Shown piece after piece: positions 2,034 through 32,136 of a stretch of DNA of 32,279 nt. The DNA comes from Pirellula sp. (lineage in GTDB: Bacteria; Planctomycetota; Planctomycetia; Pirellulales; Pirellulaceae), in NCBI GenBank assembly GCA_025459355.1, contig JALOQS010000011.1, forward strand, positions 1 to 32,279, given 5' to 3'. The translations under genes and the position numbers were made by a program. The notes beneath the pieces are model-generated. The model made no database searches. It saw only the letters and a program-made list of their open reading frames with translations, and was not told where the DNA came from. How positions within the stretch are numbered: the stretch's first letter is position 1; the number at the start of each line of letters is the position of its first letter.

Positions 2034-3047
2034 ATGTCGAACGCCGCCTTGGCTAATCCCGCAGATGCGCCTCAAGCCATCGAGAATTTCCAGCAATCGG
2101 TCGGACGTATCCGAGCCGCACTCAAACAGGTTATCGTTGGACAAGAAGCCGTTATTGAACAGCTGCTTATCTGTGCACTCACTGGATCGCATGCTTTGCT
2201 AGTCGGCGCTCCGGGGCTTGCTAAGACATTGATGGTCAAGAGCCTAGCTAGTATCTTCGATTGGAAGTTTTCACGCGTTCAGTTCACGCCTGATTTAATG
2301 CCTAGCGACATCACAGGGTACGAGCTGTTGATGCGAGACAATACAACCGGCAACACGGAAATGAAGTTTCGCTTTGGTCCGATCTTCGCCAATCTAGTCT
2401 TAGCTGACGAAATCAATCGCGCTGCACCTAAGACTCAATCCGCGCTCCTGGAGGCTATGGCGGAGAGACATGTGACCGTGGGTGGGGTTACCTACCAATT
2501 GGATGACCCTTTTCTCGTTATTGCGACACAGAATCCTATCGAGCAAGAAGGGACTTATCCGCTGCCAGAGGCTCAATTGGATCGATTCATGATGGAAATT
2601 CGAATCGGGTATCCAACTCCCGAAGTCGAACGTGACATCGTTCAACGCACTACCTCCAGTGAACTGCCTGTGCCTGATAAACAATTTACTCCTGAGTTGT
2701 TTAATCAACTGAAGCATTTGGTTCGATCGGTGCCTGTTCCCGATCCTATTGCTGACTACGCCGTCGCATTGTGCGCAGCGTCTCGCCCTGGAGGAAATGG
2801 AACGACGCACAAGTCGTGTGAGCAGTATGTAACCTTTGGCGCTGGACCTCGTGGTTCGCAGAATTTGGTGATGGCTTCGAAAGCGAGAGCCTTGATGTAT
2901 GGTCGGCCTGTCCCGACGCGCGAGGATATTGTTGCGGTCGCTAAACCCATTTTGAGGCACCGTATCATTGTGAATCATCGAGCGATGGGGGACGGGATTT
3001 CAACAGACGATTTGATCGATAAGCTACTCAAAGAGGTTGCAAAGTAA
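2034..3047 (+). CDS. MoxR-family AAA+ ATPase (cluster 1)
   Basis: A 337-aa MoxR-type AAA+ protein, normal length for the family. Walker A is GAPGLAKT near residues 57-65. Walker B is LVLADEINRA near residue 122, followed by the MoxR pattern PKTQSALLEAMAERHVTVGG. Sensor-1 is ATQNPIEQEGTYPLPEAQLD. The C-terminal helical lid contains FGAGPRGSQNLVMASKARAL. MoxR ATPases act as ATP-driven chaperones that assemble or activate VWA-domain partners, and here three VWA-type genes follow on the same strand. The ATG at 2034 is chosen because the protein then begins just before conserved sequence; no good Shine-Dalgarno is visible. It is the first gene of a probable four-gene operon. Confidence 0.95.
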   Translation: MSNAALANPADAPQAIENFQQSVGRIRAALKQVIVGQEAVIEQLLICALTGSHALLVGAPGLAKTLMVKSLASIFDWKFSRVQFTPDLMPSDITGYELLMRDNTTGNTEMKFRFGPIFANLVLADEINRAAPKTQSALLEAMAERHVTVGGVTYQLDDPFLVIATQNPIEQEGTYPLPEAQLDRFMMEIRIGYPTPEVERDIVQRTTSSELPVPDKQFTPELFNQLKHLVRSVPVPDPIADYAVALCAASRPGGNGTTHKSCEQYVTFGAGPRGSQNLVMASKARALMYGRPVPTREDIVAVAKPILRHRIIVNHRAMGDGISTDDLIDKLLKEVAK

Positions 3048-3071
3048 TTCGAGTGTTTCCGTAATTCGAGT
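3044..3071 (+). repeat. Short direct repeat spanning the moxR stop
   Basis: GTAATTCGAGT occurs at 3044-3054 and again at 3061-3071. The first copy includes the TAA stop of the MoxR gene. It looks like a small local duplication in the 35-nt spacer before the DUF58 gene. Confidence 0.6.
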
Positions 3072-3082
3072 ATCTCAAAGTT

Positions 3083-4000
3083 ATGCAATCTCACGCTGCT
3101 GGTGACTCCTCAAAGTTTCTAAACCTCCGCTCGCTGTCTGGGCTGGAGGGGCTTCGTTTCTCTGCAAAGCGTCGCATCGAAGGCGCTTACAGCGGCCGGC
3201 ATATTGCGAGAAAGCAGGGGGGAGCGGGCGAGTTCGCTGACTATCGTGAATACTCTCCAGGCGATGATCTAAGGCGTTTGGATTGGCGGATTCTTGCGAG
3301 AACCGGCAAAACGTTCTTAAAGCTACATCAGGACGAAACAAATCTTGCATGCACCATGCTGATCGATTCCTCTGGTTCGATGGGGTTTGCGGGCTATCAA
3401 CAAAAGGGAGATGACTCTAAGCTTGCTTGGTGCCAGTTTTTCACGACCGCGTTATCGCATCTGATTCTCACGGGGCGCGACCATGTCGGTTTAGCGGTTT
3501 CCGAGCAGAAAGAATGCCCGTACTTCCCGCCTAGTTGTCTGCCTCAACAACGTGGGCTGATTCACGAGTCGATTGCGAATATGGTCCCCCGCGGTTCCAC
3601 AAATCTTGCCCATTCACTCGACTCTCTTTTTATGCAAGTGAGAAGACGCGGAGTCTTGATGGTTCTTTCCGACTTTCTCGATGCGGATTTGGATCCAATG
3701 TTATCGTCTCTAAGAAAGTTCCGGACTCGTGGTTGGGAGGTGATCGCGATGCATATTGTCCATCCCGATGAATTGTCGTTGCCAAAGGGGAGAGCCTTTC
3801 GATTTTTGGGTATGGAGGGGGAATTGCCCGTGGCGGCCCAAGTTAACGAACTTCGCGAGGCTTACGAAGGACGATTTGAAAGGCATCAAGCGTCGGTACG
3901 AACGGGACTATTGAGTGTCGGATGCGATTTTCACTCAATCTTGACCAGCACTCATTACATGGATGTGCTCAAGCAGTTTCTAATCAAGCGTTCAGGATGA
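3083..4000 (+). CDS. DUF58 domain protein with VWA-like fold (cluster 1)
   Basis: A 305-aa protein with the DUF58 hallmark DYREYSPGDDLRRLDWR near residues 53-69. A VWA-like MIDAS motif follows (DSSGS, residues about 94-98, in the context CTMLIDSSGSMGF). A later strand, VLMVLSDFLDADLD, carries the second acidic site. It has no membrane segment, so it is probably cytoplasmic or peripheral. DUF58 genes almost always follow moxR, and the product is thought to be a MoxR client or adaptor. The ATG lies 35 nt after the moxR stop and 7 nt separate its stop from the next gene, so co-translation is likely. Confidence 0.93.
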   Translation: MQSHAAGDSSKFLNLRSLSGLEGLRFSAKRRIEGAYSGRHIARKQGGAGEFADYREYSPGDDLRRLDWRILARTGKTFLKLHQDETNLACTMLIDSSGSMGFAGYQQKGDDSKLAWCQFFTTALSHLILTGRDHVGLAVSEQKECPYFPPSCLPQQRGLIHESIANMVPRGSTNLAHSLDSLFMQVRRRGVLMVLSDFLDADLDPMLSSLRKFRTRGWEVIAMHIVHPDELSLPKGRAFRFLGMEGELPVAAQVNELREAYEGRFERHQASVRTGLLSVGCDFHSILTSTHYMDVLKQFLIKRSG

Positions 4001-18988: not shown

Positions 18989-21850
18989 TTACCAATCCTT
19001 TTCGACAGATGACTGACCATATGCCTTTAACCTACGTTGCCGGTCGCGATCGCGTTTCTCCGCTTCCCGCTCTCGAACTTTGCGAAGTGCCTCAGCGATT
19101 CGGTCTTGGCTAGGGGCTTTGTCCTCCTTTGCAGATTTTCGATCAGCCGCACTTTTATTCTCTTCATTAGGCTTGTTCTCTTCATTCGATTTATCAGGCT
19201 CTTTGTTTGGGTCTTTTTGATCGTTCGATTTCTCGTCTGATTCAGAATCGTTTTTCTCTTCTTGATTCTTATCTTGGTCATCGGCGTTTTTCTGATCATC
19301 GGATTGCTTCGACGATTCGTCTTTCTGATCGTCTTTCTGATCGTCTTTCTGATCGTCTTTCTGATCGTCTTTCTGATCTTGCGATTCAGAACTTTGATCC
19401 TGTTCGTTTTGCTGATCTTGATTGTTTTGCTGCTGATCTTGGCTCTTTGGCTGCTCTTTTTTGATTTCTTCGAGAATTCGTCTCGCTTCGCTTGCGTGTG
19501 CTAGAGCTTCCCGGCCGTCGTTTTTGTTAAGCATCCCAATTGCTGATCTCATTTCTTCAACCGCCTTGGGTGACAATTCCACCGCTTTGTTGAGATAGGC
19601 GTTGAGCTGTTCTTTTTGCTCGGCGGACATCGTTTCTTCAGACTGATTGGGCATGTTTTCGTTGCTGGAATCTGCTTCAGATAAAGCGACCAACATGTTC
19701 TGCGCTTTGGGTTGCAGCGTCAGGGCTCTGGCTAAAACTCGTTCTTGATCACGAATCGATTTTCTTGACACTTGCTCTGTGGTCGTGTCGTCTTGGAAAG
19801 GCTTTAAATCCTTCTCAAGTTTTCGTTGTTCAGCAATCGCACGCTGAAGCGCTTGATCTAAGGAGGCGATCGCGTTCCATATCCGGTCTAGTTCACCAAG
19901 AGCGTTTTGCTGATGCTCTAATGACTCGGACGAACGATACTTTCCGAGCGAAGTCGAACACATTTTCATGTAATCTCGCGAGGTATCGGACCAACCGAGC
20001 ATCGTGTCGATGGCTTTTTGAATCTCCTTTTTCTCTTCCTCAGTAGGTGCGGGTTGCGATGCCTGCTCCGGAGGAGACAACGCTTCCTGAATCTTCTCAT
20101 TTAAAAACGGGAACTCCTCGAGCAAACGGTCTTGCAAGAGCTTTAACTCCGCATGCTTGTCGAGTTGGTAGAGATCCTCCAGCGCTGACGACTCGGACAT
20201 GATCTCATTTTGAACTTTTTGCATGTAGTCCAAGAACCCTACGAGATCGGTCTCCCGTCTTCGTTTGTTCAGATCATATTCCTCCCACTGGTCCGTGACG
20301 ACTTTGAGCCATTGACGAACGATTTCGATGTTCTTTCTGGACGTGGTGGCATTGGGATCCAACTCCAAACTAGATCGATAGGCCGCTATCGCTTGCTTCG
20401 CTTCGTCGACCAGTTTCTCGCGATCCTCCTTTTTTTCCAAGATCGTAGAACCATCCTTCCAAATCTCTTTGGCCGCGTCTACGTGGACGCGAGCGAGATT
20501 AAAATTGGCTCTAGCTGCCAAGCCGCGATCTCGGGCCATCGCCGCTTGCAAATAAAGTTCGATGGCTTTGTTTTTGTTTCCCAAGCGATGTTCCGCGCAC
20601 GCTTGATCAAAGTACGCGATGTGTTGTTCTTGACTCTTTGCATCGCGCAGCGACTCGCCCGCTTTGCTAAAGGTATCACTGGCTTTTTCAAAATCCTGTT
20701 TCTCATAATGCCGGAGCCCTTGTTGTATGGTTGCTGAATCATCTGCCAAGGATGATGCACTGCCAAACAAAAACGAAACAATGAGGACGCCTGCCGTTGT
20801 AGCAACTAAAGTAGAACTCTTGGAATAACGCGATGATTCGACCCCCACGACGGCTAGCGTTGTGTGCGGCTTGATCAGGAGATCGATCAGCAAAAGCAAA
20901 ACGCCGAAGCCCAAAAACCATTGGAATTGTTCTCCTCGGCGGATTCGATTTTGCGTCTCCGATGTGTCGCCTCCACGCTCGGCTAGATAATTGGTGTAGA
21001 TCTCTCTCAAGTCATAGTTTTTGGTTCCGGCTGGGATGTATACGCCACTGGTCTTTAAAGCGAGTTGCTCAAGAAGACTGCTATCCAATTTGCTCCAAAC
21101 CTGCTCGCCTTCATACTCGACAAACTGCCCGGTACGATCTTTGACTGGAATGCGGGCCCCTTGAGTCGAATCACCGAGCCCCACCGAAAAGATAGTAACG
21201 CTCCGCTCCGCAGCAACCTCTGCGGCTTCGAGCGGCGCCGACTTCTGATCGTCACCGTCGGTGATAAGCAATATCGCTTGATCGCGCTGGCTGTTCGGTT
21301 TGAACACTTCTAATGCTTTGCGTATTGCATCGCCGATAGCTGTGCCACCGCGAGGTGCACTGGTCGTGTCGATGTCAGCAAGAGTTCGCCTGAATGACTC
21401 GTAATCAACAGTGAGCGGAACCTTCACCACGGCTTGGCCAGCAAACGCGATCAAGCCGACTCGTTCACCAGTCAAACTATTGACCAACGCACCGATGTCG
21501 GCTTTGGCTCGTTCCAAGCGACTGGGTGGCACGTCGTTCGCGAGCATAGACCTGGAGACATCCAATAGGACATACAAATCGCTTCCCTTTGGGACAATCG
21601 TTTCGATTTGTTCTCCGAATTGGGGACCGGCCAACGCAATCAAAAGTGCCGAGACTCCCAAGACTTGTAAAACGATTTTCGTGATTTGATTTCGCAGCGA
21701 TAGCTTCGGCATCAGTTTATCAGCCATGCTGGATGCCATAAATCGTTGACGTGCTGCTCGATTCTTTGTGATCGCGTAAACAGACAACACCACCCAACCT
21801 ACCAAAAGTGGGAGCAGCCAAATCAGCAAGCTTGCATTGCGCCAATCCAT
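18989..21850 (-). CDS. BatB-BatC fusion: VWA membrane protein with TPR and acidic tail
   Basis: A 953-aa protein. Residues 1-330 are BatB-like: two N-terminal membrane helices, VWA with DVSRS (about 98), PRGGTAIGDA and LLITDGDD, and a third helix (FLGFGVLLLLIDLLI). At about 345-368 a signal-peptide-like segment (ATTAGVLIVSFLFGSASSLA) leads into TPR-like repeats (IQQGLRHYEKQDFEKASDTF), as in BatC. A long helical region and a highly charged Asp/Gln/Lys/Glu tail follow, including five tandem DQKD units. The TPR part is probably periplasmic. It is 11 nt after the batA stop and 1 nt before the next start, so translation is probably coupled. Confidence 0.87.
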   Translation of the reverse strand: MDWRNASLLIWLLPLLVGWVVLSVYAITKNRAARQRFMASSMADKLMPKLSLRNQITKIVLQVLGVSALLIALAGPQFGEQIETIVPKGSDLYVLLDVSRSMLANDVPPSRLERAKADIGALVNSLTGERVGLIAFAGQAVVKVPLTVDYESFRRTLADIDTTSAPRGGTAIGDAIRKALEVFKPNSQRDQAILLITDGDDQKSAPLEAAEVAAERSVTIFSVGLGDSTQGARIPVKDRTGQFVEYEGEQVWSKLDSSLLEQLALKTSGVYIPAGTKNYDLREIYTNYLAERGGDTSETQNRIRRGEQFQWFLGFGVLLLLIDLLIKPHTTLAVVGVESSRYSKSSTLVATTAGVLIVSFLFGSASSLADDSATIQQGLRHYEKQDFEKASDTFSKAGESLRDAKSQEQHIAYFDQACAEHRLGNKNKAIELYLQAAMARDRGLAARANFNLARVHVDAAKEIWKDGSTILEKKEDREKLVDEAKQAIAAYRSSLELDPNATTSRKNIEIVRQWLKVVTDQWEEYDLNKRRRETDLVGFLDYMQKVQNEIMSESSALEDLYQLDKHAELKLLQDRLLEEFPFLNEKIQEALSPPEQASQPAPTEEEKKEIQKAIDTMLGWSDTSRDYMKMCSTSLGKYRSSESLEHQQNALGELDRIWNAIASLDQALQRAIAEQRKLEKDLKPFQDDTTTEQVSRKSIRDQERVLARALTLQPKAQNMLVALSEADSSNENMPNQSEETMSAEQKEQLNAYLNKAVELSPKAVEEMRSAIGMLNKNDGREALAHASEARRILEEIKKEQPKSQDQQQNNQDQQNEQDQSSESQDQKDDQKDDQKDDQKDDQKDESSKQSDDQKNADDQDKNQEEKNDSESDEKSNDQKDPNKEPDKSNEENKPNEENKSAADRKSAKEDKAPSQDRIAEALRKVREREAEKRDRDRQRRLKAYGQSSVEKDW
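19321..19380. repeat. Five 12-bp tandem repeats encoding DQKD units
   Basis: The unit CTTTCTGATCGT (plus strand) is repeated five times; the fifth ends TT in place of GT. On the minus strand it encodes in-frame Asp-Gln-Lys-Asp repeats in the acidic tail of the BatB-BatC fusion. Units of a multiple of three keep the frame whatever the copy number. Confidence 0.95.
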
Positions 21851-22941: not shown

Positions 22942-24073
22942 GATTTCCCTCCGTAGCACTCGATGCTGGTGTCGCCTCTTCGGGATGTTCAAATCGAATC
23001 GCGATAAACTCGCGAGCCCGCTCGAGCGATTGCGTAATACTGGACTCGTCCGGTGTTTGGCCAGCATACTTAACTAAATCTGCCGCCGTTAAAAACTCTT
23101 GCAATCGATAGGCTTGCGGCCCATCGAATTGCGAACTGGCTCGCATGTCTCTCAAAAACTCTTCGGTCGTCTGCTCAGGAGCTCGCAGCCCAGTTTTACT
23201 TTCGATAAAAACCCTCACTATGCCTGTTAGCCGCAAGTAAAACTCTTTTACCATACCTCGGGTCGGCAACTGCTCCGCCACTAGTTCTGCCAAAGCCATG
23301 TTTGCAATCTGTTCTGGGCTCAGCATCGGTGCAACGACTGGTAATTCCGATCGCCTTTTGATCAACCAGTAAACCCATGCCGAAAGAAACCCAATCAAGC
23401 AAACAATGCCAAGAACCAACCAAAACCAATTCTGTTTCGGAGCTATCGGGTCGGTCATAGGATCAACCTGACTCAAATCCGAACTGACATCGCCGAACTC
23501 AGATACGACATTGATTTCGATCGGTTCCGATTGCACAACGTCACGGGTTTCTTCCCCCTGAGCTGATTTCTCGGTAAACACAATCGGTATCGATCGTATC
23601 AAATGCTTGCCACTAAACATGGGCTCCAATTGGTAACGAATCACTTGAGTCGTTTTCTCGTCGCTCGGTGCTCCCTCCGAATCGGTTGGTTTACCCGACT
23701 CGGCATTGGCTGTGGTATTGATTGTGGTGCTGGCTGTGGTGCTGCTTCGTTCGCTGAAGTCGCGGACCGCGAAATCTCCGACCGATTGTCCGAACACGGG
23801 AGGTTCGACCTTCATCGCCGAGGGGTGAACAATCTTGATCGTCAAATCCACGAGATCGGACAATCGAGGCTCTTTGGGATAAACCTCGACATCCAGGCGA
23901 ACGCCCCCTTTCTCGGTCGACTTAAGGATAGATTGATCCGCCGAGTCGGCCGACTCGGTTTTTGACTTATCTTGTTCCAACCGATCGCAGCCAACAATGG
24001 CGATCATCCAAACCATCAAAAGGAAAGGTCGAAACCGGGGTTGCATTATGTTGCTGACGATCGGAGTGATCAT
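22934..24073 (-). CDS. BatD/DUF4381-like lipoprotein with membrane helix
   Basis: A 379-aa protein. The N-terminus (RPFLLMVWMIAIVGC) ends in a lipobox with Cys29. A Ser/Thr/Asp-rich linker leads to an Ig-like BatD-type region (LDVEVYPKEPRLSDLVDLTI, GKHLIRSIPIVFTEK). A membrane helix (FWLVLGIVCLIGFLSAWVYW, about 212-233) follows. The cytoplasmic end has a DUF4381-like helical domain (MVKEFYLRLTGIVRVFIE, EQTTEEFLRDMR). The ATG at 24073 overlaps the DUF58 stop as ATGA, an established coupling arrangement. DUF4381 proteins commonly sit between DUF58 and BatA genes. Confidence 0.78.
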   Translation of the reverse strand: MITPIVSNIMQPRFRPFLLMVWMIAIVGCDRLEQDKSKTESADSADQSILKSTEKGGVRLDVEVYPKEPRLSDLVDLTIKIVHPSAMKVEPPVFGQSVGDFAVRDFSERSSTTASTTINTTANAESGKPTDSEGAPSDEKTTQVIRYQLEPMFSGKHLIRSIPIVFTEKSAQGEETRDVVQSEPIEINVVSEFGDVSSDLSQVDPMTDPIAPKQNWFWLVLGIVCLIGFLSAWVYWLIKRRSELPVVAPMLSPEQIANMALAELVAEQLPTRGMVKEFYLRLTGIVRVFIESKTGLRAPEQTTEEFLRDMRASSQFDGPQAYRLQEFLTAADLVKYAGQTPDESSITQSLERAREFIAIRFEHPEEATPASSATEGNRG

Positions 24074-24957
24074 GATCTCGACCGCTCCCGTCCGTGAAAG
24101 AACGCGTGCAGGCTTTTCGAGTAGGGTTGATCTGTTCGAATGTTCAAACGATCAACTCCAGCCTGCCGAAATGTTTGCGCGAGTGACTCGCGACGCGACT
24201 TGACTCTCGCTTGCAACCATTCGCGGACATGTCTGTTGGCTGTGTCCAATTCCAAAACTTGACCCGTTTCTGCATCTTGCAAGGTGACGAAGCCGACGTT
24301 GGGAATTTCTTCTTCACGTGGATCAGCGATGGTGACCGCGACGCAATCGTGCTTTTGATTGATGATTCGAAGGGATTTGTCAAAGGAATCGGTTAAGAAA
24401 TCACTGATGCAGAACACGACGCAACGTCTTCGCTGGACCTTGCCGAGGTACTCAAGTGCAAGAGACAGATTGGTTTGTGCGCGGACCGGCTCGACGGTCA
24501 GCAACTCTCTGACCAGCCTCAAAACACTGCCACGTCCTTTGCTTGGGGGAATGTAACGCACGATGTCTTCTGCAAAAAGAAGCAATCCGACACGGTCGTT
24601 ATTGGTCAAGGCCGTGAACATGAGGACGGCTGCGATTTCGGCCGCAATGTCAAGCTTGGACTGGCTCGTGGAACCGAACGCATTGGACGCGGAAATGTCG
24701 ACCGCGATCATGACCGTTAGTTCGCGTTCTTCGCAAAATGTTTTGACAAACGGGGACTCGGATCGCGCTGTGACGTTCCAGTCGATATTCCGAATGTCAT
24801 CTCCCGGCACATACTCGCGGACCGAATCAAACTCCATGCCACGACCTTTGAACGCGCTGGAATACTCACCAGCCATCAAGTCGTTGACCTGCCGACGAGC
24901 GATAATCTGAATGCGTCTAACGTCGCGAAGGATTTCTTCGAGGCTTCGAGTCGCCAT
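24070..24957 (-). CDS. DUF58 domain protein with VWA-like fold (cluster 2)
   Basis: A 295-aa protein with the DUF58 signature VREYVPGDDIRNIDWN near residues 46-61 and a MIDAS-like DISAS (about 88-92, MIAVDISASNAFG). A second acidic strand is VVFCISDFLTDSF. It has no membrane segment. It follows the MoxR gene by 25 nt and overlaps the lipoprotein gene by four nt. A GAGGGA about nine nt upstream supports the ATG. Compared with the first DUF58 gene it is only distantly similar outside the signature, so the clusters are old paralogues or separately acquired. Confidence 0.93.
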   Translation of the reverse strand: MATRSLEEILRDVRRIQIIARRQVNDLMAGEYSSAFKGRGMEFDSVREYVPGDDIRNIDWNVTARSESPFVKTFCEERELTVMIAVDISASNAFGSTSQSKLDIAAEIAAVLMFTALTNNDRVGLLLFAEDIVRYIPPSKGRGSVLRLVRELLTVEPVRAQTNLSLALEYLGKVQRRRCVVFCISDFLTDSFDKSLRIINQKHDCVAVTIADPREEEIPNVGFVTLQDAETGQVLELDTANRHVREWLQARVKSRRESLAQTFRQAGVDRLNIRTDQPYSKSLHAFFHGRERSRS

Positions 24958-24982
24958 AAGTCGCTTCCCTCAATCCAGATAA

Positions 24983-25972
24983 CTAAGGAACAGGGACGGT
25001 ATCGAGCACTTGTTGAACAACACTATCCGAGGTTCTTTCTTCGGCCTCAGCTTCGTAAGTCAAAAGAATGCGGTGTCTCATGACATCGAGCGCAACATCC
25101 TTGATGTCTTGAGGTGTCACATATCCACGGCCCGATAAGAATGCGTTGGCTCGTCCGGCTAAACATAAATTGATCGACGCACGAGGGGACGCGCCGCATT
25201 GGATCAAAGGCTGGAGCTCTTTCATCCGGTAATTCTGCGGCTCCCGCGTGGCGGCAACGATTTCCAGAACATAGTCTTTGATCTTGTCATCCATATAGAT
25301 CGATGACACCGTTTGCTTGATCTCGAAGAGTTTCGACGGATTCAAAACAGGCTGGATCTCGCGTTTGACGCCATCTAACGCCTGATCCACCACTTTGCGT
25401 TCATCGGCTTTGTTCGGGTAACCCACCACGACCTTGAGCATAAACCGGTCCACCTGCGCCTCGGGCAATGGATAGGTCCCCTCCTGCTCGATCGGGTTCT
25501 GAGTCGCGAGCACCAAGAACGGCTCTTCGAGTGTATAGGTTTCGTCTCCAATGGTAACCTGCCGCTCCTGCATGGCTTCTAGCAGCGCGGACTGTACCTT
25601 GGACGGTGCACGATTGATCTCATCGGCCAAGACCAAGTTCGCGAAGATCGGTCCCTTGCGTGTTCCAAAACTCCCCTCACGAGGGTTGTAAATCATGGTG
25701 CCTATCAAATCGGCAGGGAGCAAATCGGGGGTGAATTGGATTCTTTGAAACTTGCATTGGATCGCTCCCGCAAGAGCCTTGATGGCGGTCGTCTTGGCAA
25801 GCCCCGGTAGCCCCTCTAAGAGAACATGCCCCCCGGTGAAAAGGGCGATTAGCAGACGACTGAGCATAACGTCTTGCCCGACCAAGTTCTTTCGAACTTG
25901 CGAACGAATTTGCTCGATATCGTCGGCAAACCTCAACACTTGCTCTTTAATTCTCTGAACATCGACCGACAT
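24983..25972 (-). CDS. MoxR-family AAA+ ATPase (cluster 2)
   Basis: A 329-aa protein from the ATG at 25972 (MSVDVQRIKEQVLRF); an upstream in-frame start at 26035 would add residues with no family likeness. Walker A is GLPGLAKT near 52-60. Walker B LVLADEINRAPSKVQSALLE leads into MQERQVTIGDETYTLEEPFL. Sensor-1 is ATQNPIEQEGTYPLPEAQVD. The lid has CGASPRASINLCLAGRANAF. It is the first gene of the second operon. The product should remodel the membrane VWA proteins encoded downstream. Confidence 0.95.
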   Translation of the reverse strand: MSVDVQRIKEQVLRFADDIEQIRSQVRKNLVGQDVMLSRLLIALFTGGHVLLEGLPGLAKTTAIKALAGAIQCKFQRIQFTPDLLPADLIGTMIYNPREGSFGTRKGPIFANLVLADEINRAPSKVQSALLEAMQERQVTIGDETYTLEEPFLVLATQNPIEQEGTYPLPEAQVDRFMLKVVVGYPNKADERKVVDQALDGVKREIQPVLNPSKLFEIKQTVSSIYMDDKIKDYVLEIVAATREPQNYRMKELQPLIQCGASPRASINLCLAGRANAFLSGRGYVTPQDIKDVALDVMRHRILLTYEAEAEERTSDSVVQQVLDTVPVP

Positions 25973-26000
25973 AGAAATCTTCGACTCGTAGGGGGATGAT

Positions 26001-26029
26001 GTTATAAACAAACCTGATAATAGTGCCTC
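26001..26029 (-). promoter_or_regulatory. Possible promoter of the cluster 2 operon
   Basis: On the minus strand TATAAC (26006-26001) matches the -10 consensus at five of six positions, 28 nt before the MoxR start at 25972. The -35 hexamer at 17-nt spacing (GAGGCA, 26029-26024) matches only three of six. Weak evidence. Confidence 0.25.
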
Positions 26030-26227
26030 GTGCACGGGAGATCCCTGAGAATTTTAGAGCCGAAACGATCCCACACCATTCCAGAAGCTAATTCGGGATG
26101 CGATTACCACCAGAAATAGGGAGCTATTTCGACTGTCAAAATGCCAGGACCCAATCGTCCAACCCCGAGCAGCAAAAGCCATTCCGATTTCAAATTCCGT
26201 TCGATGCGGCTCGTGGGGGCAAGCATT

Positions 26228-26706: not shown

Positions 26707-27576
26707 TTATGCCGTGTGGATGCGATCGTACAACGTTCTTAACCCAACGGATTCGACTACTATGTTGCCTAACTTCATGGTCTGCAACAACTCCAAATGA
26801 TCGCCCATGTCCCCATCTAACTCAAACTCAACGTAATCGCCTCGCTCGACGAAACGACGCACCGTATTATGGCTCGACCAAGCCCTCATGGAAACGGTCG
26901 GGGTGCCTCGGACGCGATGAACCGGCTTCACTGACTTGATGTCAATCGTTTCGACCGCCTCACCTCGTCTCAAGATGGCGGCCCTGTCGCATATCTCCTC
27001 AATCTCACTCAACACGTGCGAACAAAACACGATCGTCGCTCCCTTGCTCTGCGCCTCTTTGACCAACACCAAAATCTCAGCACGCACATTGGGATCAAGG
27101 TTCGCCGTGGGCTCGTCCAAGATGATAAGACTGGTGGAGCAACTCAAGACGCAACTAATGGCCAGCTTCTGCCTCATGCCCGTTGACATAAAGGCCACTC
27201 GCCTCGACCAATCCAATTGCAACCGCTCCGCAATGCTCTTGGCTCGCTGGAAATCGCCGCGTGGGTGTATGCTGGAAAAAAACTCGATGCAATCAATCCC
27301 ACGCATGGTCCGAAACAATTTGGTCTCGGCCGGTAAATAACTTGTGCGTTCACGGACTTTGAGCGACTCGGTTATGCAGTCAAACCCGTCGATCGTCGCG
27401 ACACCAGACGTCGGCTTGATGTATCCCAACAAACTACGAATCAAAGTCGTTTTTCCTGCACCGTTGGGACCCAATAACCCAAAAATAGATCCCTGGGGTA
27501 CCTCTAACGAACAACCGTTCAGCGCCAAAAACTCGCCGTAACGCTTGGTCAGGTTCTTAACAGATACGATCGCCAT
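26707..27576 (-). CDS. ABC transporter ATP-binding protein (ABC-2 type), orphan
   Basis: A 289-aa nucleotide-binding subunit. Walker A is GPNGAGKTT (residues 36-44). The signature region is the MSTGMRQKLAIS variant usual for ABC-2 export ATPases. Walker B is LIILDEPTANLDP and the switch histidine is in FCSHVLSEIEEICD. The C-terminal part is the short regulatory region of this class. It would power a membrane permease, but none is adjacent: repeat-rich DNA follows on the 3' side and a kinase gene lies upstream. The ATG at 27576 fits the family start (MAIVSVKNLTKRYGEFLAL). The transported substrate cannot be inferred. Confidence 0.93.
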   Translation of the reverse strand: MAIVSVKNLTKRYGEFLALNGCSLEVPQGSIFGLLGPNGAGKTTLIRSLLGYIKPTSGVATIDGFDCITESLKVRERTSYLPAETKLFRTMRGIDCIEFFSSIHPRGDFQRAKSIAERLQLDWSRRVAFMSTGMRQKLAISCVLSCSTSLIILDEPTANLDPNVRAEILVLVKEAQSKGATIVFCSHVLSEIEEICDRAAILRRGEAVETIDIKSVKPVHRVRGTPTVSMRAWSSHNTVRRFVERGDYVEFELDGDMGDHLELLQTMKLGNIVVESVGLRTLYDRIHTA

Positions 27577-27697: not shown

Positions 27698-29569
27698 CTA
27701 CTTGCCAGTGTCGTCTTGTGTCAACTGCTTCCTAGCTCGTTCTACTAAACCCTTGGCCCACGGTTTATCATCGAACAGCTCGACCAAAGCGGCGAACCAC
27801 TTGCGTCTGATCTCCGGTGACAGATTTGTTTGGGCCCAGTCTGCTTGCTTCTCAAGTTCCTCTAAAGCCTCATTCTTCTTGGTGTCCCGCTCTTGTGCGA
27901 GCATGTTCAAGGAGCGTTTTGCTTGCGATACGAGTTGCTTGGATAACTTGCTATTCTCGGCCTCGCGTGCGAACATGGTCAAAAACGCTTGATACTTTCG
28001 AATCGCTACGCTGGCGTCGAGCGATTGGGCCTCTAGGCACTCCAAAAAGGCCTGCTGCATGGGTGTCAATTGATCCCCCGATCCGCGTCTGGCTTTTCGT
28101 TGCAGGGTCTTGATCGATTGGATGGAATCGATTTCTTCGAGAGCGGCCTCGACATCCGCTATGCGTGGATCGTTGGGGTACAACTCTTGAAACCTCAGCG
28201 CAGTCGATTCGATGGATAACCAAACCTCTTCGTCATTGCTATCGATCGCTTGGGCTATCTCACCGTACAACGTATTCGCTGAGGGGGATCGTAACAACCA
28301 AATCATCGCACCAATACAACCCAACAACGCAGCGCTGAGAATGGCGATGGGTATCCACTGCCCAAGACTGGAATGGTCGGTCGGTTCACTCGTGGTGAGG
28401 GTTACTCGCCTGCGATCCTTTTCTTCAAACTCTTTGAAGTTGGTTTTGCCCATGTGCTCGATGCCGCTGGGACGATCTACATTGAGCTCATCCATGGACT
28501 CTCGCCCTTGGCCCAACTCTGCGGCTACGGTTTTTTCATCTGGTCCCGCTCGGGATGGGAAATCGGATCGAGTCGCATCCTTTTTTATTACGGGTTTCTC
28601 ATCCTTCATGTGGGTGTGATCCGAAACGAATACCGTTTGATTCTTCTTGATTCGAGGGTCGCTTAGAATCTCCGGATCGATATCAATACTGGTTAACTCC
28701 TTGAGCCGACCAGCATCATTCCCTTCGGTGATTTGCGTTCGATGTGCCAAGCCCATCTTGAGGGACTGAAACCGATTCCCAACCACCAAACCTGTCGGCG
28801 GCCGTCGAGAAGGATCCTTGGCCAAGAGCTCTTCAATCAAATCGCTCAACTCACTCGGTACATCTCTCACCAATTCCGAGATGGGGGTTAACGTACTGTA
28901 ACGAACGTTGAACAAAACCTCGGGGACCGTCTTCCCTCCAAAAGGTGCTCGACCTGTCAACGCGGCATAACATACGCTCCCTAAAGCATACAGATCGCTG
29001 CGTACCGTTACCGGTTTGCCTTCCGCTTGTTCCGGTGACATAAAGTCGGCTGTACCTAGAATCGATCCCTCGACGGTCGCGTCGGCCGCACCAAAGAGCT
29101 TTGCAATTCCGAAGTCCGTTAACTTGACTCGCCCTTGGGTGTCGATCATCAAATTGGCGGGCTTCAAATCGCGGTGAATGATTCCGAAATCGTGCGCGTG
29201 CTTGAGCGCGGAACTGGTTTCGATCCCAATCTCGATCACACGTTGCCAATCGAGCTTCTTTTCTCGCCGCAACTGTTGCTGAAGATTCTCGCCATCGACA
29301 TACTCCATCGAATAAAACAGCATCCCCTTTTCTTCGCCGGAACCGATGAGCTGCACAATGTTCGGATGCTTGAGCTTGAGCAACGTCTGGATCTCGGCAT
29401 CAAACCTGCGTCGAAAGCGTTGATGTTGGGCCAACGCCGGGGCGATGATTTTCACAGCGACCGGATCGCCCGACTTGGTGTGTACGCCGTGATACACGGT
29501 TCCCATCCCGCCTTGTCCTAAGACCCGGACAATTTTGTAGGGACCGATGAACTCAAAATCAATCTTCAC
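27698..29569 (-). CDS. Transmembrane serine/threonine protein kinase (PknB-like)
   Basis: A 623-aa protein starting at a GTG (29569). The kinase domain covers about residues 11-265: the Gly loop GQGGMGTV (18-25), Lys40 (VAVKII), HRDLKPAN (132-139), DFG (152-154), and GTADFMSPEQAEG in the activation segment. All catalytic residues are present. After a charged linker with Ser/Thr sites, one membrane helix (IPIAILSAALLGCIGAMIWL, about 404-425) anchors it. The roughly 200-residue outer part is helical and lacks PASTA repeats. It lies 82 bp after the Ala/Thr-rich gene on the same strand, near the divergent FHA-cyclase gene. Confidence 0.96.
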   Translation of the reverse strand: MKIDFEFIGPYKIVRVLGQGGMGTVYHGVHTKSGDPVAVKIIAPALAQHQRFRRRFDAEIQTLLKLKHPNIVQLIGSGEEKGMLFYSMEYVDGENLQQQLRREKKLDWQRVIEIGIETSSALKHAHDFGIIHRDLKPANLMIDTQGRVKLTDFGIAKLFGAADATVEGSILGTADFMSPEQAEGKPVTVRSDLYALGSVCYAALTGRAPFGGKTVPEVLFNVRYSTLTPISELVRDVPSELSDLIEELLAKDPSRRPPTGLVVGNRFQSLKMGLAHRTQITEGNDAGRLKELTSIDIDPEILSDPRIKKNQTVFVSDHTHMKDEKPVIKKDATRSDFPSRAGPDEKTVAAELGQGRESMDELNVDRPSGIEHMGKTNFKEFEEKDRRRVTLTTSEPTDHSSLGQWIPIAILSAALLGCIGAMIWLLRSPSANTLYGEIAQAIDSNDEEVWLSIESTALRFQELYPNDPRIADVEAALEEIDSIQSIKTLQRKARRGSGDQLTPMQQAFLECLEAQSLDASVAIRKYQAFLTMFAREAENSKLSKQLVSQAKRSLNMLAQERDTKKNEALEELEKQADWAQTNLSPEIRRKWFAALVELFDDKPWAKGLVERARKQLTQDDTGK

Positions 29570-29651
29570 AGCTTTTCACCTTGGTAATCTTCCAGCCTAG
29601 GGCCATTCAGCCAAATCGGTTTTGCGGGCGGCTTTTAGTCGAGGATATGTT

Positions 29652-30209
29652 CTACTTTAACAGATGCTCGATCTGAGATACGGCAATGCCCAACGATTTC
29701 GCTGCCATCTTAAAGTTCATGTGGCCGGAAACTTCGGGCTGCAACTCGGCAAAGTGCTCGGCCGTTCGTTTCAACTTGGAGAATTTCTTGCGTGCTAAAT
29801 GAAGATACTTTTTGGCATCGCCTGCATCAATCGAAGGGCCCAATGCGAGCATGAAATCGTACAATTCGCGATGCACCTCGGCCAACTCTTCATCCTCCGA
29901 TGCTTCATCGGAGTGCTTGAGAAACGTTCTTACCATCCATATATGACTCAGCGTATCATCGATCCGTCGCATCAGTTCCGTGGCGATTTGTTCGGCGGTG
30001 GTTTGTTCAGTCGTGGTATCGGCCGTGGCGAGCTCTGCCGCTGACTCGGTGGCGGCTAAATCGGTGGCGGCTAGCTCTGCAGCCACTGGCTGAGCGTTGG
30101 GATCGGCGGAACCGATGGCGTTGGGATCGGGATCGGTAGCGAGTTGTTCTGAATCCATATAAGTATTGATGTTCGAGGTCATTTCGGTCCGATCATTCAG
30201 TATACTCAT
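29652..30209 (-). CDS. Ala/Thr-rich helical protein, unknown function
   Basis: A 185-aa protein I do not recognise. Residues about 20-75 are a low-complexity Ala/Thr/Glu repeat region (AAELAATDLAATESAAELAT). It is built at DNA level from near-repeats such as TCGGTGGCGGCTA (30046-30058 and 30061-30073). The remaining 100 residues are helical and charged (MRRIDDTLSHIWMVRTFLKH, AKKYLHLARKKFSKLKRTAE). It has no signal peptide. The many threonines make it a conceivable substrate of the neighbouring kinase, but that is speculation. The ATG at 30209 has a TAGGA sequence very close upstream. It is transcribed towards the kinase gene and divergent from the FHA-cyclase gene. Confidence 0.7.
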   Translation of the reverse strand: MSILNDRTEMTSNINTYMDSEQLATDPDPNAIGSADPNAQPVAAELAATDLAATESAAELATADTTTEQTTAEQIATELMRRIDDTLSHIWMVRTFLKHSDEASEDEELAEVHRELYDFMLALGPSIDAGDAKKYLHLARKKFSKLKRTAEHFAELQPEVSGHMNFKMAAKSLGIAVSQIEHLLK

Positions 30210-30261
30210 TATTCCTACTTTGTAATGTCACGGGGAAATGCCGCTTTTCTAGGATGGATCG

Positions 30262-32136
30262 ATGCCTGATTTGATTGCACAGGGACCTGCTATCACTGAC
30301 CGCTGGCGCCGGGCATTACCCAATGCCGATGTCATCGCGACCGCTTCTATCGTTCTAGGCCGATCGTCATCGGGCTGGTCTGTGCCATGGGACGACCGCA
30401 TTTCTCGAAATCATGCTCAACTCACGTGGAATGGTACCAAACTCGCCGTCCACAGGCTGATGGATTCGCGAAACCCGGTCTTCTTTAAAGGACTGCGGCG
30501 AGACGACTTCGAGGTTGGCATTGGCGAACATTTTGTGATTGGGCAAACCACATTCAGCTTGGTCGACCATCGCATTCGCATGGTCTCGGCCGGTGATGCT
30601 CCTCCCGCTATGACCGAGCTGACGTTTGCTCCCTCACAGCTTCGACAATACCGTTATCGCGATGCCGATCGTCGCATCGAGGCCTTGAGCCGACTGCCAG
30701 AAATCATCTCGGGCAGCCGATCGGATGACGAACTGTGTGTCCGGGTTGTGAGTATGTTGATGCAGGGGATTCCCCGGGCCGCATTGGTCGCGGTCGTTTC
30801 GGACCCCGCTATGCAACAGGATTCGGAGGAAGACGAATTGACCACGATCAACTCCGATGACGAATCCTCAACAGCCCAAACGGACTCCGAAATCCGCGTG
30901 TTGCACTGGGACTCGCGCAGCACGATCAGCGAACCATTCGCTCCCTCGGCGCGATTGATCCAACAAGCGCTCAAGACGCAACAAAGCGTGCTTAACATTT
31001 GGAACCGAAATCAGTATCTCGCCAAGACCTCGTTCACTCAAAGCGAAAATGTCGACTGGGCCTTTTGCACTCCGATCCTCGGGGAAGCATGTCCTGGTTG
31101 GGCGATCTATGTGGCTGGTGATTTCTCCGGCATCGAAGGAGTCGCTCCCCCTAAAAACTCAACCCTCGAAGTGGAACATGGTCTGCAAGATGAGTTGAAG
31201 TTCGCGGAACTAACGGCCACGACGATTAGCTCTCTGAGACAAACGCGGTTGCTCCTGCGACGACAAGATTCGTTGCGTCCATTCTTCGCTCCCGTTGTTC
31301 AGCGAGCACTGGCCACGGCTGATCCCGATCAAGTGCTTGCGCCACGCGAAACCGACGTCTCGGTACTATTCTGCGATTTGCGAGGTTTCTCCCGACGTAG
31401 CGAAGAGTCGAGCGATCGACTTTTGGAATTGCTGCAACGTGTTAGCGATGCGTTAGGCGTCATGACTCACCATATCCTCTCCAGCCACGGCGTGGTCGGC
31501 GATTTTCATGGCGATGCAGCCATGGGTTTCTGGGGCTGGCCGCTGGGGCAATCCGATGCGGTGCATCAAGCGGCTCATGCTGCACTAGCGATTCGTGCCG
31601 AGTTCGAGGATGCCTCCAAGCGGAAAGATCACCCGCTGTTCGGCTTCCGTGCGGGCCTGGGAATTGCAACGGGCCGAGCTGTTGCCGGGCGCATCGGTAC
31701 GGTGGATCAAGTCAAGGTGACGGTCTTTGGACCGGTCGTCAATCTCGCAGCTCGTTTGGAGAGCATGACGAAACAACTCCAAGCACCGATTCTCATAGAC
31801 GAAACGACCGCCAAGATGCTGGCTAGCGGCTGTCCCGATTCGTTTCGCATTCGCAAAGTTGCTAGAGTGCTTCCTTATGGCGTGACTACACCACTGACGG
31901 TAAGTGAGCTGTTGCCACCTGAGGGAGACGGGAGCGTGCTTTCGAACGAGCACATACGCGCCTACGAACAAGCGCTCGAGTGTTTACAAGCGGGCGATTG
32001 GGACGCTGCGTTTCGATTGTTGCATCACGTGCCAGCCGAAGATCGAGTGAAAGATTTTCTCACCGTGTTCATTGCACAGCATGGGCGCACGCCACCTGCC
32101 GACTGGCAAGGCATTATTCCTTTATCGAGCAAATAG
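30262..32136 (+). CDS. FHA domain - class III nucleotide cyclase protein
   Basis: A 624-aa soluble protein. The N-terminal FHA domain (about 28-115) shows GRS (33-35) and SRNH (48-51), the phosphothreonine-binding motifs. A GAF-like middle region (about 140-345) includes HWDSRSTISEPFAPSARLI. The C-terminal class III cyclase domain (from about 365) has the metal aspartates Asp372 (LFCDLRGFS) and Asp418 (GDAAMGFWG), Asn494 and Arg498 (NLAARLE). The adenine-selecting Lys position is Asp414, while Thr487 is kept. It should bind a phosphorylated partner and may make a cyclic nucleotide. An AGGA lies about eight nt upstream of the ATG. Confidence 0.92.
   Translation: MPDLIAQGPAITDRWRRALPNADVIATASIVLGRSSSGWSVPWDDRISRNHAQLTWNGTKLAVHRLMDSRNPVFFKGLRRDDFEVGIGEHFVIGQTTFSLVDHRIRMVSAGDAPPAMTELTFAPSQLRQYRYRDADRRIEALSRLPEIISGSRSDDELCVRVVSMLMQGIPRAALVAVVSDPAMQQDSEEDELTTINSDDESSTAQTDSEIRVLHWDSRSTISEPFAPSARLIQQALKTQQSVLNIWNRNQYLAKTSFTQSENVDWAFCTPILGEACPGWAIYVAGDFSGIEGVAPPKNSTLEVEHGLQDELKFAELTATTISSLRQTRLLLRRQDSLRPFFAPVVQRALATADPDQVLAPRETDVSVLFCDLRGFSRRSEESSDRLLELLQRVSDALGVMTHHILSSHGVVGDFHGDAAMGFWGWPLGQSDAVHQAAHAALAIRAEFEDASKRKDHPLFGFRAGLGIATGRAVAGRIGTVDQVKVTVFGPVVNLAARLESMTKQLQAPILIDETTAKMLASGCPDSFRIRKVARVLPYGVTTPLTVSELLPPEGDGSVLSNEHIRAYEQALECLQAGDWDAAFRLLHHVPAEDRVKDFLTVFIAQHGRTPPADWQGIIPLSSK

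Follow-up and report, generated by a model that had tools for sequence, protein, structure and literature searches.

Gene clusters that bring a Ser/Thr kinase together with an FHA protein, and fusions that join a kinase to a cyclase, are already known kinds of signalling system. In mycobacteria a kinase gene is clustered with the gene of an FHA protein, and Pkn2 of Myxococcus carries a kinase, a guanylyl-cyclase-like region and a membrane segment in one signalling protein, the role of the cyclase-like part being called unclear (PMC1262709). The family TIGR03903 (TOMM kinase/cyclase fusion) is by name a Ser/Thr kinase fused to a cyclase, and the guanylyl cyclase Cya2 (2w01) has an acidic residue at its purine site. 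Here we analysed a contig of Pirellula sp. (GenBank assembly GCA_025459355.1, contig JALOQS010000011.1; G000:C70 in our numbering), the whole of which, 32,279 nt, is called the window, and which ends 143 bases after a gene encoding an FHA domain and a class III cyclase in one protein (the cyclase, Table 1). Divergent from it lie genes for a 185-aa protein (P185) and for a membrane Ser/Thr kinase (the window kinase), and a preliminary description had read the three as a possible signalling module in which the kinase would phosphorylate P185 and/or the cyclase and the FHA domain would read the mark. The three open reading frames (ORFs) lie where that description had placed them and the observation is confirmed, whereas its interpretation is partly supported: linkage and co-occurrence speak for a membrane Ser/Thr kinase feeding the FHA-cyclase, but the partner they indicate is another kinase, KIN2, and not the adjoining one. 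On balance we lean towards the reading that KIN2 is the evolutionary partner of the cyclase, that it would act through phosphothreonine on the FHA-cyclase and so on a cyclic nucleotide, and that the window kinase and P185 are not dedicated to this task.

Compared with the described systems, kinase and cyclase are separate proteins in the planctomycete case, and the FHA domain would bridge them. The window kinase matches the kinase part of TIGR03903, but with 141.5 bits against a cut-off of 705.75 and over residues 34-273 only, and so falls outside the fusion family. Pkn2 is a single polypeptide, and the excerpts of PMC1262709 mention no FHA reader for it. Unlike the mycobacterial clusters, the planctomycete FHA domain is fused to the cyclase, and the FhaB/FipA model NF049868 scored 20.1 bits against a cut-off of 125. 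Among PDB sequences the cyclase domain matched Cya2 best (4.1e-13), but Cya2 has Glu-Gly at the purine site where the window protein, a putative cyclase, has Asp-Thr and, at its N terminus, an FHA domain. In the open-access literature, as far as the retrieved portions of the articles extend, a search found no report joining an FHA-cyclase to a planctomycete kinase. Nor did that search bring up a kinase coupled to a class III cyclase by way of a separate FHA reader, an arrangement kept across Pirellulales and one more order.

Orthologous cyclase loci were taken as the best 80 of 216 stretches encoding a relative, 64 of them with at least 2.3 kb upstream (L129, where KIN2 is adjacent, has 2.2 kb). 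Neighbours were counted from coordinates, and kinases were searched by tblastn with the window kinase domain as query, so that very divergent kinases could escape the counts. In 17 of the 80 loci the gene that immediately precedes the cyclase, on its own strand, encodes a kinase, KIN2. Elsewhere in the flanks, which total 1.12 Mb, there were four kinase matches, one of them (L110) KIN2-like, plus a window-type kinase beside the cyclase in L061 and L062. In a tree of 28 rows the codirectional neighbours all grouped with KIN2, with the window kinase and its relatives outside. Within a panel of 60 genomes, made up of the window's own genome (G000) and 59 relatives, KIN2 and the cyclase were adjacent in eight, which represent 8 families (G037, G039, G047, G048, G049, G052, G055 and G057), and in family f21, which belongs to a second order, KIN2 was directly upstream in 3 of 9 loci (8 genomes). 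The two genes are about 5 kb apart in G028, with two opposite-strand genes between them, and about 0.73 Mb apart in the complete genome G006. Across the 8 families and the second order the genes around the KIN2-cyclase pair vary while KIN2 stays. The window's own assembly encodes a single KIN2, at G000:C132:19402-21696 (50% identity over query residues 5-409, E 1e-127), the next own kinase matching the KIN2 query at E 2.7e-29.

KIN2 is predicted to be a Ser/Thr kinase whose two membrane segments flank a Cache-like region. HCDLKPxN replaces HRDLKPxN in all 29 KIN2 proteins examined, and all 29 have two hydrophobic segments (L104 has a third); DFG is present in 28, L098 being without it. A Pfam search met the kinase domain in 6 of the 6 proteins tested, and dCache_1 reached 57.4 bits in L258 (cut-off 45) and stayed below its cut-off in L222, L098, L136 and L259.

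A separate observation concerns the DNA between the two genes. In L267 (5701-10576), two opposite-strand genes, DUF1501/cytochrome-type by reading, lie between KIN2 and the cyclase, and similar pairs are found upstream of the cyclase in L066, L069, L072, L090, L121, L126 and L133, as if they often landed there.

Co-occurrence was scored by eye from match tables. A cyclase orthologue was called in 48 of the 60 genomes, the weakest one counted being that of G008 (E 1.3e-79) and the other 12 genomes giving nothing better than 6e-32; at E 0.001 there were cyclase matches, orthologous or not, in 57 genomes. For KIN2 the search was repeated with a profile of its non-kinase part. The rpoB tree comprised 58 genomes, leaving out G000 (no rpoB match) and G003 (a fragment only). 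Among the 51 genomes that were at least 90% complete, 39 had both KIN2 and the cyclase, 2 the cyclase only, none KIN2 only and 10 neither (Fisher 5.2e-9), and the corresponding numbers for all 58 were 43, 3, 2 and 10 (Fisher 3.2e-7). Independent pairs on starred branches of the rpoB tree all went the same way in the set of 51 (6 of 6, p 0.031); with all 58 genomes, 6 of 8 pairs went the same way, none the opposite way, and 2 were without difference. P185 showed no trend with cyclase presence (Fisher 0.33 for 58 genomes, 0.49 for 51), and the window kinase as scored gave 0.21 and 0.20, respectively.

A passive origin of the KIN2-cyclase linkage, through old gene order, chance retention and joint deletion, with a cyclase that answers several kinases or other ones, is possible but to us doubtful. 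Its grounds, the broken linkage, the genomes with one gene alone and the many candidate kinases, are given here together with the points that weigh against KIN2 as the partner. On the cyclase tree the adjacency requires 9 changes, which means repeated breaking, or making, of the linkage; it is absent from the other six f21 loci, two of which are second cyclase copies, and no panel member of f1, the family of the window, shows it, G028 having only the looser arrangement. The f21 KIN2 sequences are nested among those of Pirellulales, in a tree of weak resolution, and may have spread laterally. For the own KIN2 there was no Pfam Cache match at E 0.01, and the KIN2 query gave, at E 1e-15, 29 kinase matches within the own assembly, which leaves many candidate kinases. 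Some genomes keep one of the two genes alone: the cyclase is without KIN2 in G009, G011 and G026, and KIN2 without the cyclase in G004 and G010 (G004, G010 and G026 are less than 90% complete). For G042, G046 and G059 KIN2 was entered as absent, their matches lying at the level of the second, paralogous ones in other genomes; scored as present, these three shift the counts to 39, 2, 3 and 7 (Fisher 3.3e-5) and the independent pairs to p 0.0625. When domain-only matches were taken as absent, the window kinase itself became weakly associated with the cyclase (Fisher 0.086 for 58 genomes, 0.028 for 51), although independent pairs did not back this (median p 0.63 and 0.5). Because linked genes can go in one deletion, co-occurrence is support for the pair and not proof. 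Against a merely passive linkage stand the persistence of KIN2 as neighbour despite changing surroundings and the scarcity of other kinases in the cyclase flanks.

The cyclase is a conserved Pirellulales protein that also occurs in one family of the second order (f21), and its best named matches were metagenome-assembled genomes of Pirellula and other planctomycetes. Judged by sequence, it is probably soluble and combines an FHA reader at the N terminus with a class III nucleotide cyclase; the two domains, described earlier as joined in one protein, exceed their Pfam cut-offs. The structure model has a mean pLDDT of 85.8, and all 50 Foldseek matches listed for it were cyclase structures. PF00211 matched at E 0.05 in 47 of 47 A1 members, the FHA family with E up to 0.05 in 33 of them and Yop-YscD_cpl in 44; for the middle region (about aa 124-300), which is predicted to be alpha/beta and resembles a GAF domain by eye alone, the listing across the 47 contained no Pfam family. 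Residues were compared in 90 aligned orthologues (the window, the 80 loci and 9 panel loci) and in 14 proteins from a phylum search, of which L244 is G052 again. D372, D418, N494 and R498 are invariant in 90 of 90 and 14 of 14, and we take them to be the two metal Asp and the transition-state Asn and Arg. In the FHA domain G33, R34, S48, H51 and N71 are invariant in all 90 orthologues, and GR, SxxH and NG are given as the phosphothreonine-binding residues of FHA domains in PMC1262709.

Two minor observations concern cyclase loci. L099, on a contig labelled Candidatus Nealsonbacteria, has a Pirellulales-type FHA-cyclase (53% identity) and is probably wrongly binned. A gene for a DUF218/SanA-like membrane protein (c5, named from reading) lies downstream of the cyclase and codirectional with it in L211, L212 and L213, which are relatives that share all three genes, and in several other genus members; the c5 cluster has 15 loci, duplicates included, and the window contig ends before that position.

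Adenylyl cyclases are described as having the purine-site pair Lys-Asp; in guanylyl cyclases, Cya2 among them, the first residue is Glu and the second Cys, Ser, Thr, His, Ala or Gly (PMC4215837). In the window cyclase the pair is D414 and T487. It lacks the Lys of adenylyl cyclases at the first purine-contact position; against the guanylyl pair it has Asp and not Glu there, T487 fits, and two distant orthologues have Glu. The site is thus guanylyl-like with Asp for Glu, which makes cyclic GMP (cGMP) the likelier predicted product over cyclic AMP (cAMP). D414 is present in 90 of 90 orthologues, and in the 14 phylum-search proteins the position is Asp in 12, Glu in 2 and never Lys, the second position being occupied by Thr (11 proteins) or Gly (3). 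That the protein is an ordinary class III cyclase producing cAMP, with an FHA domain that only helps in dimer formation or localisation, is unlikely in our judgement. The counterpart of T487 is also Thr in the adenylyl cyclase 1wc1 (by eye), and FHA domains can bind without phosphorylation, but the constant acidic residue and the invariant phosphothreonine-binding residues speak against such an enzyme. Of 20 paralogues fetched (L367-L386), 17 were readable (L376, L379 and L380, translated in the wrong frame, were dropped), with 13 Asp-Gly, 2 Lys-Thr, 1 Asn-Ser and 1 Gln-Thr; the frequent acidic residue is therefore a wider planctomycete trait and not special to the window cyclase. Their common Asp-Gly pair is close to the Glu-Gly of Cya2, and the other planctomycete Asp-Gly class III cyclases of this set may possibly belong to a large group of unrecognised guanylyl cyclases.

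With KIN2 as the partner, the proposed relay would run as follows. An extracytoplasmic ligand would act on KIN2, which would phosphorylate a threonine in its own chain, in the cyclase or in an adaptor; that phosphothreonine would be bound by the cyclase's FHA domain, and this binding would localise or switch the cyclase dimer, whose cyclic nucleotide product may act on the cyclic nucleotide (cNMP)-binding proteins of the genome. Matches to cNMP_binding exceed the cut-off on four contigs of the own assembly. The more specific version, in which a Cache-type sensor Ser/Thr kinase and an FHA-gated guanylyl cyclase form a dedicated Planctomycetia relay to cGMP that is inherited and lost as a pair, is one we put forward only tentatively. 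If it is true, phosphothreonine recognition would switch a guanylyl cyclase in a bacterial kinase-to-cGMP pathway, through a protein that is the only PF00211 match, and so the only recognisable class III cyclase, in the own assembly, which is 76.5% complete. To our knowledge, planctomycete Ser/Thr kinases have few known outputs, and the KIN2-cyclase pair, by gene order and shared presence, would give one of them a concrete, measurable output. The second messenger that such a measurement should target can be predicted from the acidic purine site, and the first kinase to pair with the window cyclase would be one of the KIN2 type and not its window neighbour. Planctomycetes have many Ser/Thr kinases; for Rhodopirellula baltica, PMC1183210 lists 60.

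The adjoining genes have a different history. P185 and the window kinase lie on one strand with 82 bases between them, and the cyclase starts divergently across 52 bases. In 12 of the 80 loci P185 is found no more than 1 kb from the cyclase on its upstream side, 11 times divergently and once codirectionally, with 4 changes of this adjacency on the cyclase tree; the adjacency of a window-type kinase changes twice. The conserved three-gene neighbourhood expected from the preliminary description was for the most part not borne out: the trio is together only in the own genome, G006, G022, G024 and G026 (5 of 60 genomes, five species of one genus), and on the rpoB tree these four relatives fall into a single starred clade. 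G032 and G036, each a single contig, have the three genes far from one another, and fragmented assemblies could conceal some adjacency elsewhere. At E 1e-60 the window kinase had a match in 59 of the 60 genomes, whether or not they carry the cyclase; in 19 of the 59 the match is confined to the kinase domain, which makes orthology less certain. Elsewhere in the genus the kinase has other genes beside it, the order of kinase and ABC ATPase gene recurring in 6 of the 13 kinase loci fetched, and P185 adjoins a gene read as a nitroreductase (a name taken from the sequence) in 6 of 7 P185 loci of the genus. On synteny and presence profiles the trio was rejected as a conserved module; the window kinase and P185 are probably neighbours of the cyclase by rearrangement and not dedicated parts, and both may have been recruited in the trio clade. 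The module originally proposed, in spite of its compact layout, its five species and the weak association of the window kinase under strict scoring, is decidedly improbable given the restricted trio, the near-universal kinase, the presence of P185 unrelated to the cyclase, and an Ala/Thr-rich part that was seen in no other trio member.

The window kinase is a membrane Ser/Thr kinase, as had been reported, with a Pkinase domain, one hydrophobic stretch and HRDLKPAN at residue 132. The PknB/Stk1 model NF033483 gave 281.3 bits, below its cut-off of 450, and a Pfam search found no PASTA domain at E 1.

P185 had been called Thr/Ala-rich, which holds for residues 1-76 (16 Ala, 12 Thr) but not for residues 77-184, a conserved helical domain with matches in 30 of the 60 genomes, the own genome included. 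In the frames of relatives (41 rows, 39 distinct), those from the trio clade included, no Ala/Thr-rich part was seen; 7 of the 41 have at least 60 open residues 5' of the conserved part, with Ala plus Thr at most 26% as against 37% in the window. A role of this part as a conserved substrate was therefore rejected. The matches of G030 and G036 start at residues 40 and 34, yet they cross a stop codon. The start codon of P185 is uncertain, alignment of the extension DNA with the intergenic stretch of L061 giving no clear answer. Each of the three ORFs has relatives in many genomes and so is not a chance frame. A Foldseek search of the P185 model against PDB gave no match at E 0.001 (best 0.12). 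The best VIA-align score, to YicC, was Z 13.1, a size that helical bundles reach anyway according to the note of the tool, so no family is claimed. Cob_adeno_trans was rejected at 19.5 bits (Pfam cut-off 24), the PF01923 and PF00873 matches being under their cut-offs. A promoter scan of 29500-30400 found 2 promoter-like sites where shuffled sequence gave 0.8 on average, and this result was not used.

Table 1. Features of the window around the cyclase gene (positions in the window)
Feature	Position	Strand	Basis
FHA/class III cyclase protein, 624 aa	30262..32136	+	ORF, Pfam, model
FHA domain match, aa 31-85	30352..30516	+	Pfam, 21.5 bits (cut-off 20.7)
Class III cyclase domain (Guanylate_cyc, PF00211), aa 361-530	31342..31851	+	47.4 bits (cut-off 21.9)
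D414 codon; counterpart is Lys in 1wc1 (adenylyl cyclase CyaC), Glu in 2w01 (guanylyl cyclase Cya2)	31501..31503	+	alignment by eye
52-base gap between divergent starts of P185 and cyclase	30210..30261		coordinates
P185, 185 aa	29652..30209	-	ORF
P185 residues 1-76, Ala/Thr-rich, low-confidence and disordered-looking in model	29982..30209	-	composition, model
P185 residues 77-185, conserved helical bundle, no family claimed	29652..29981	-	relatives, model
Window kinase, membrane Ser/Thr kinase, 623 aa, GTG start	27698..29569	-	ORF, Pfam Pkinase
Kinase domain, aa 11-257	28799..29539	-	Pfam Pkinase, E 5.8e-56
Sole predicted membrane stretch of window kinase, aa 401-428	28286..28369	-	hydropathy scan
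ABC transporter ATPase downstream of window kinase	26707..27576	-	Pfam, locus comparison

Elsewhere in the window, two gene pairs each consist of a MoxR-type ATPase and a DUF58-like protein (the second name from reading), at 2034-4000 on the plus strand and at 24070-26035 on the minus strand; the MoxR proteins of the two pairs are 45% identical and the DUF58-like proteins 28%. At 18989-21850 on the minus strand, a large protein, vWA-like by eye, has a Gln/Asp/Lys-rich tail encoded by perfect 12-base repeats (array 19317-19378), to which the AT skew of -0.397 at 19001-20000 is probably due.

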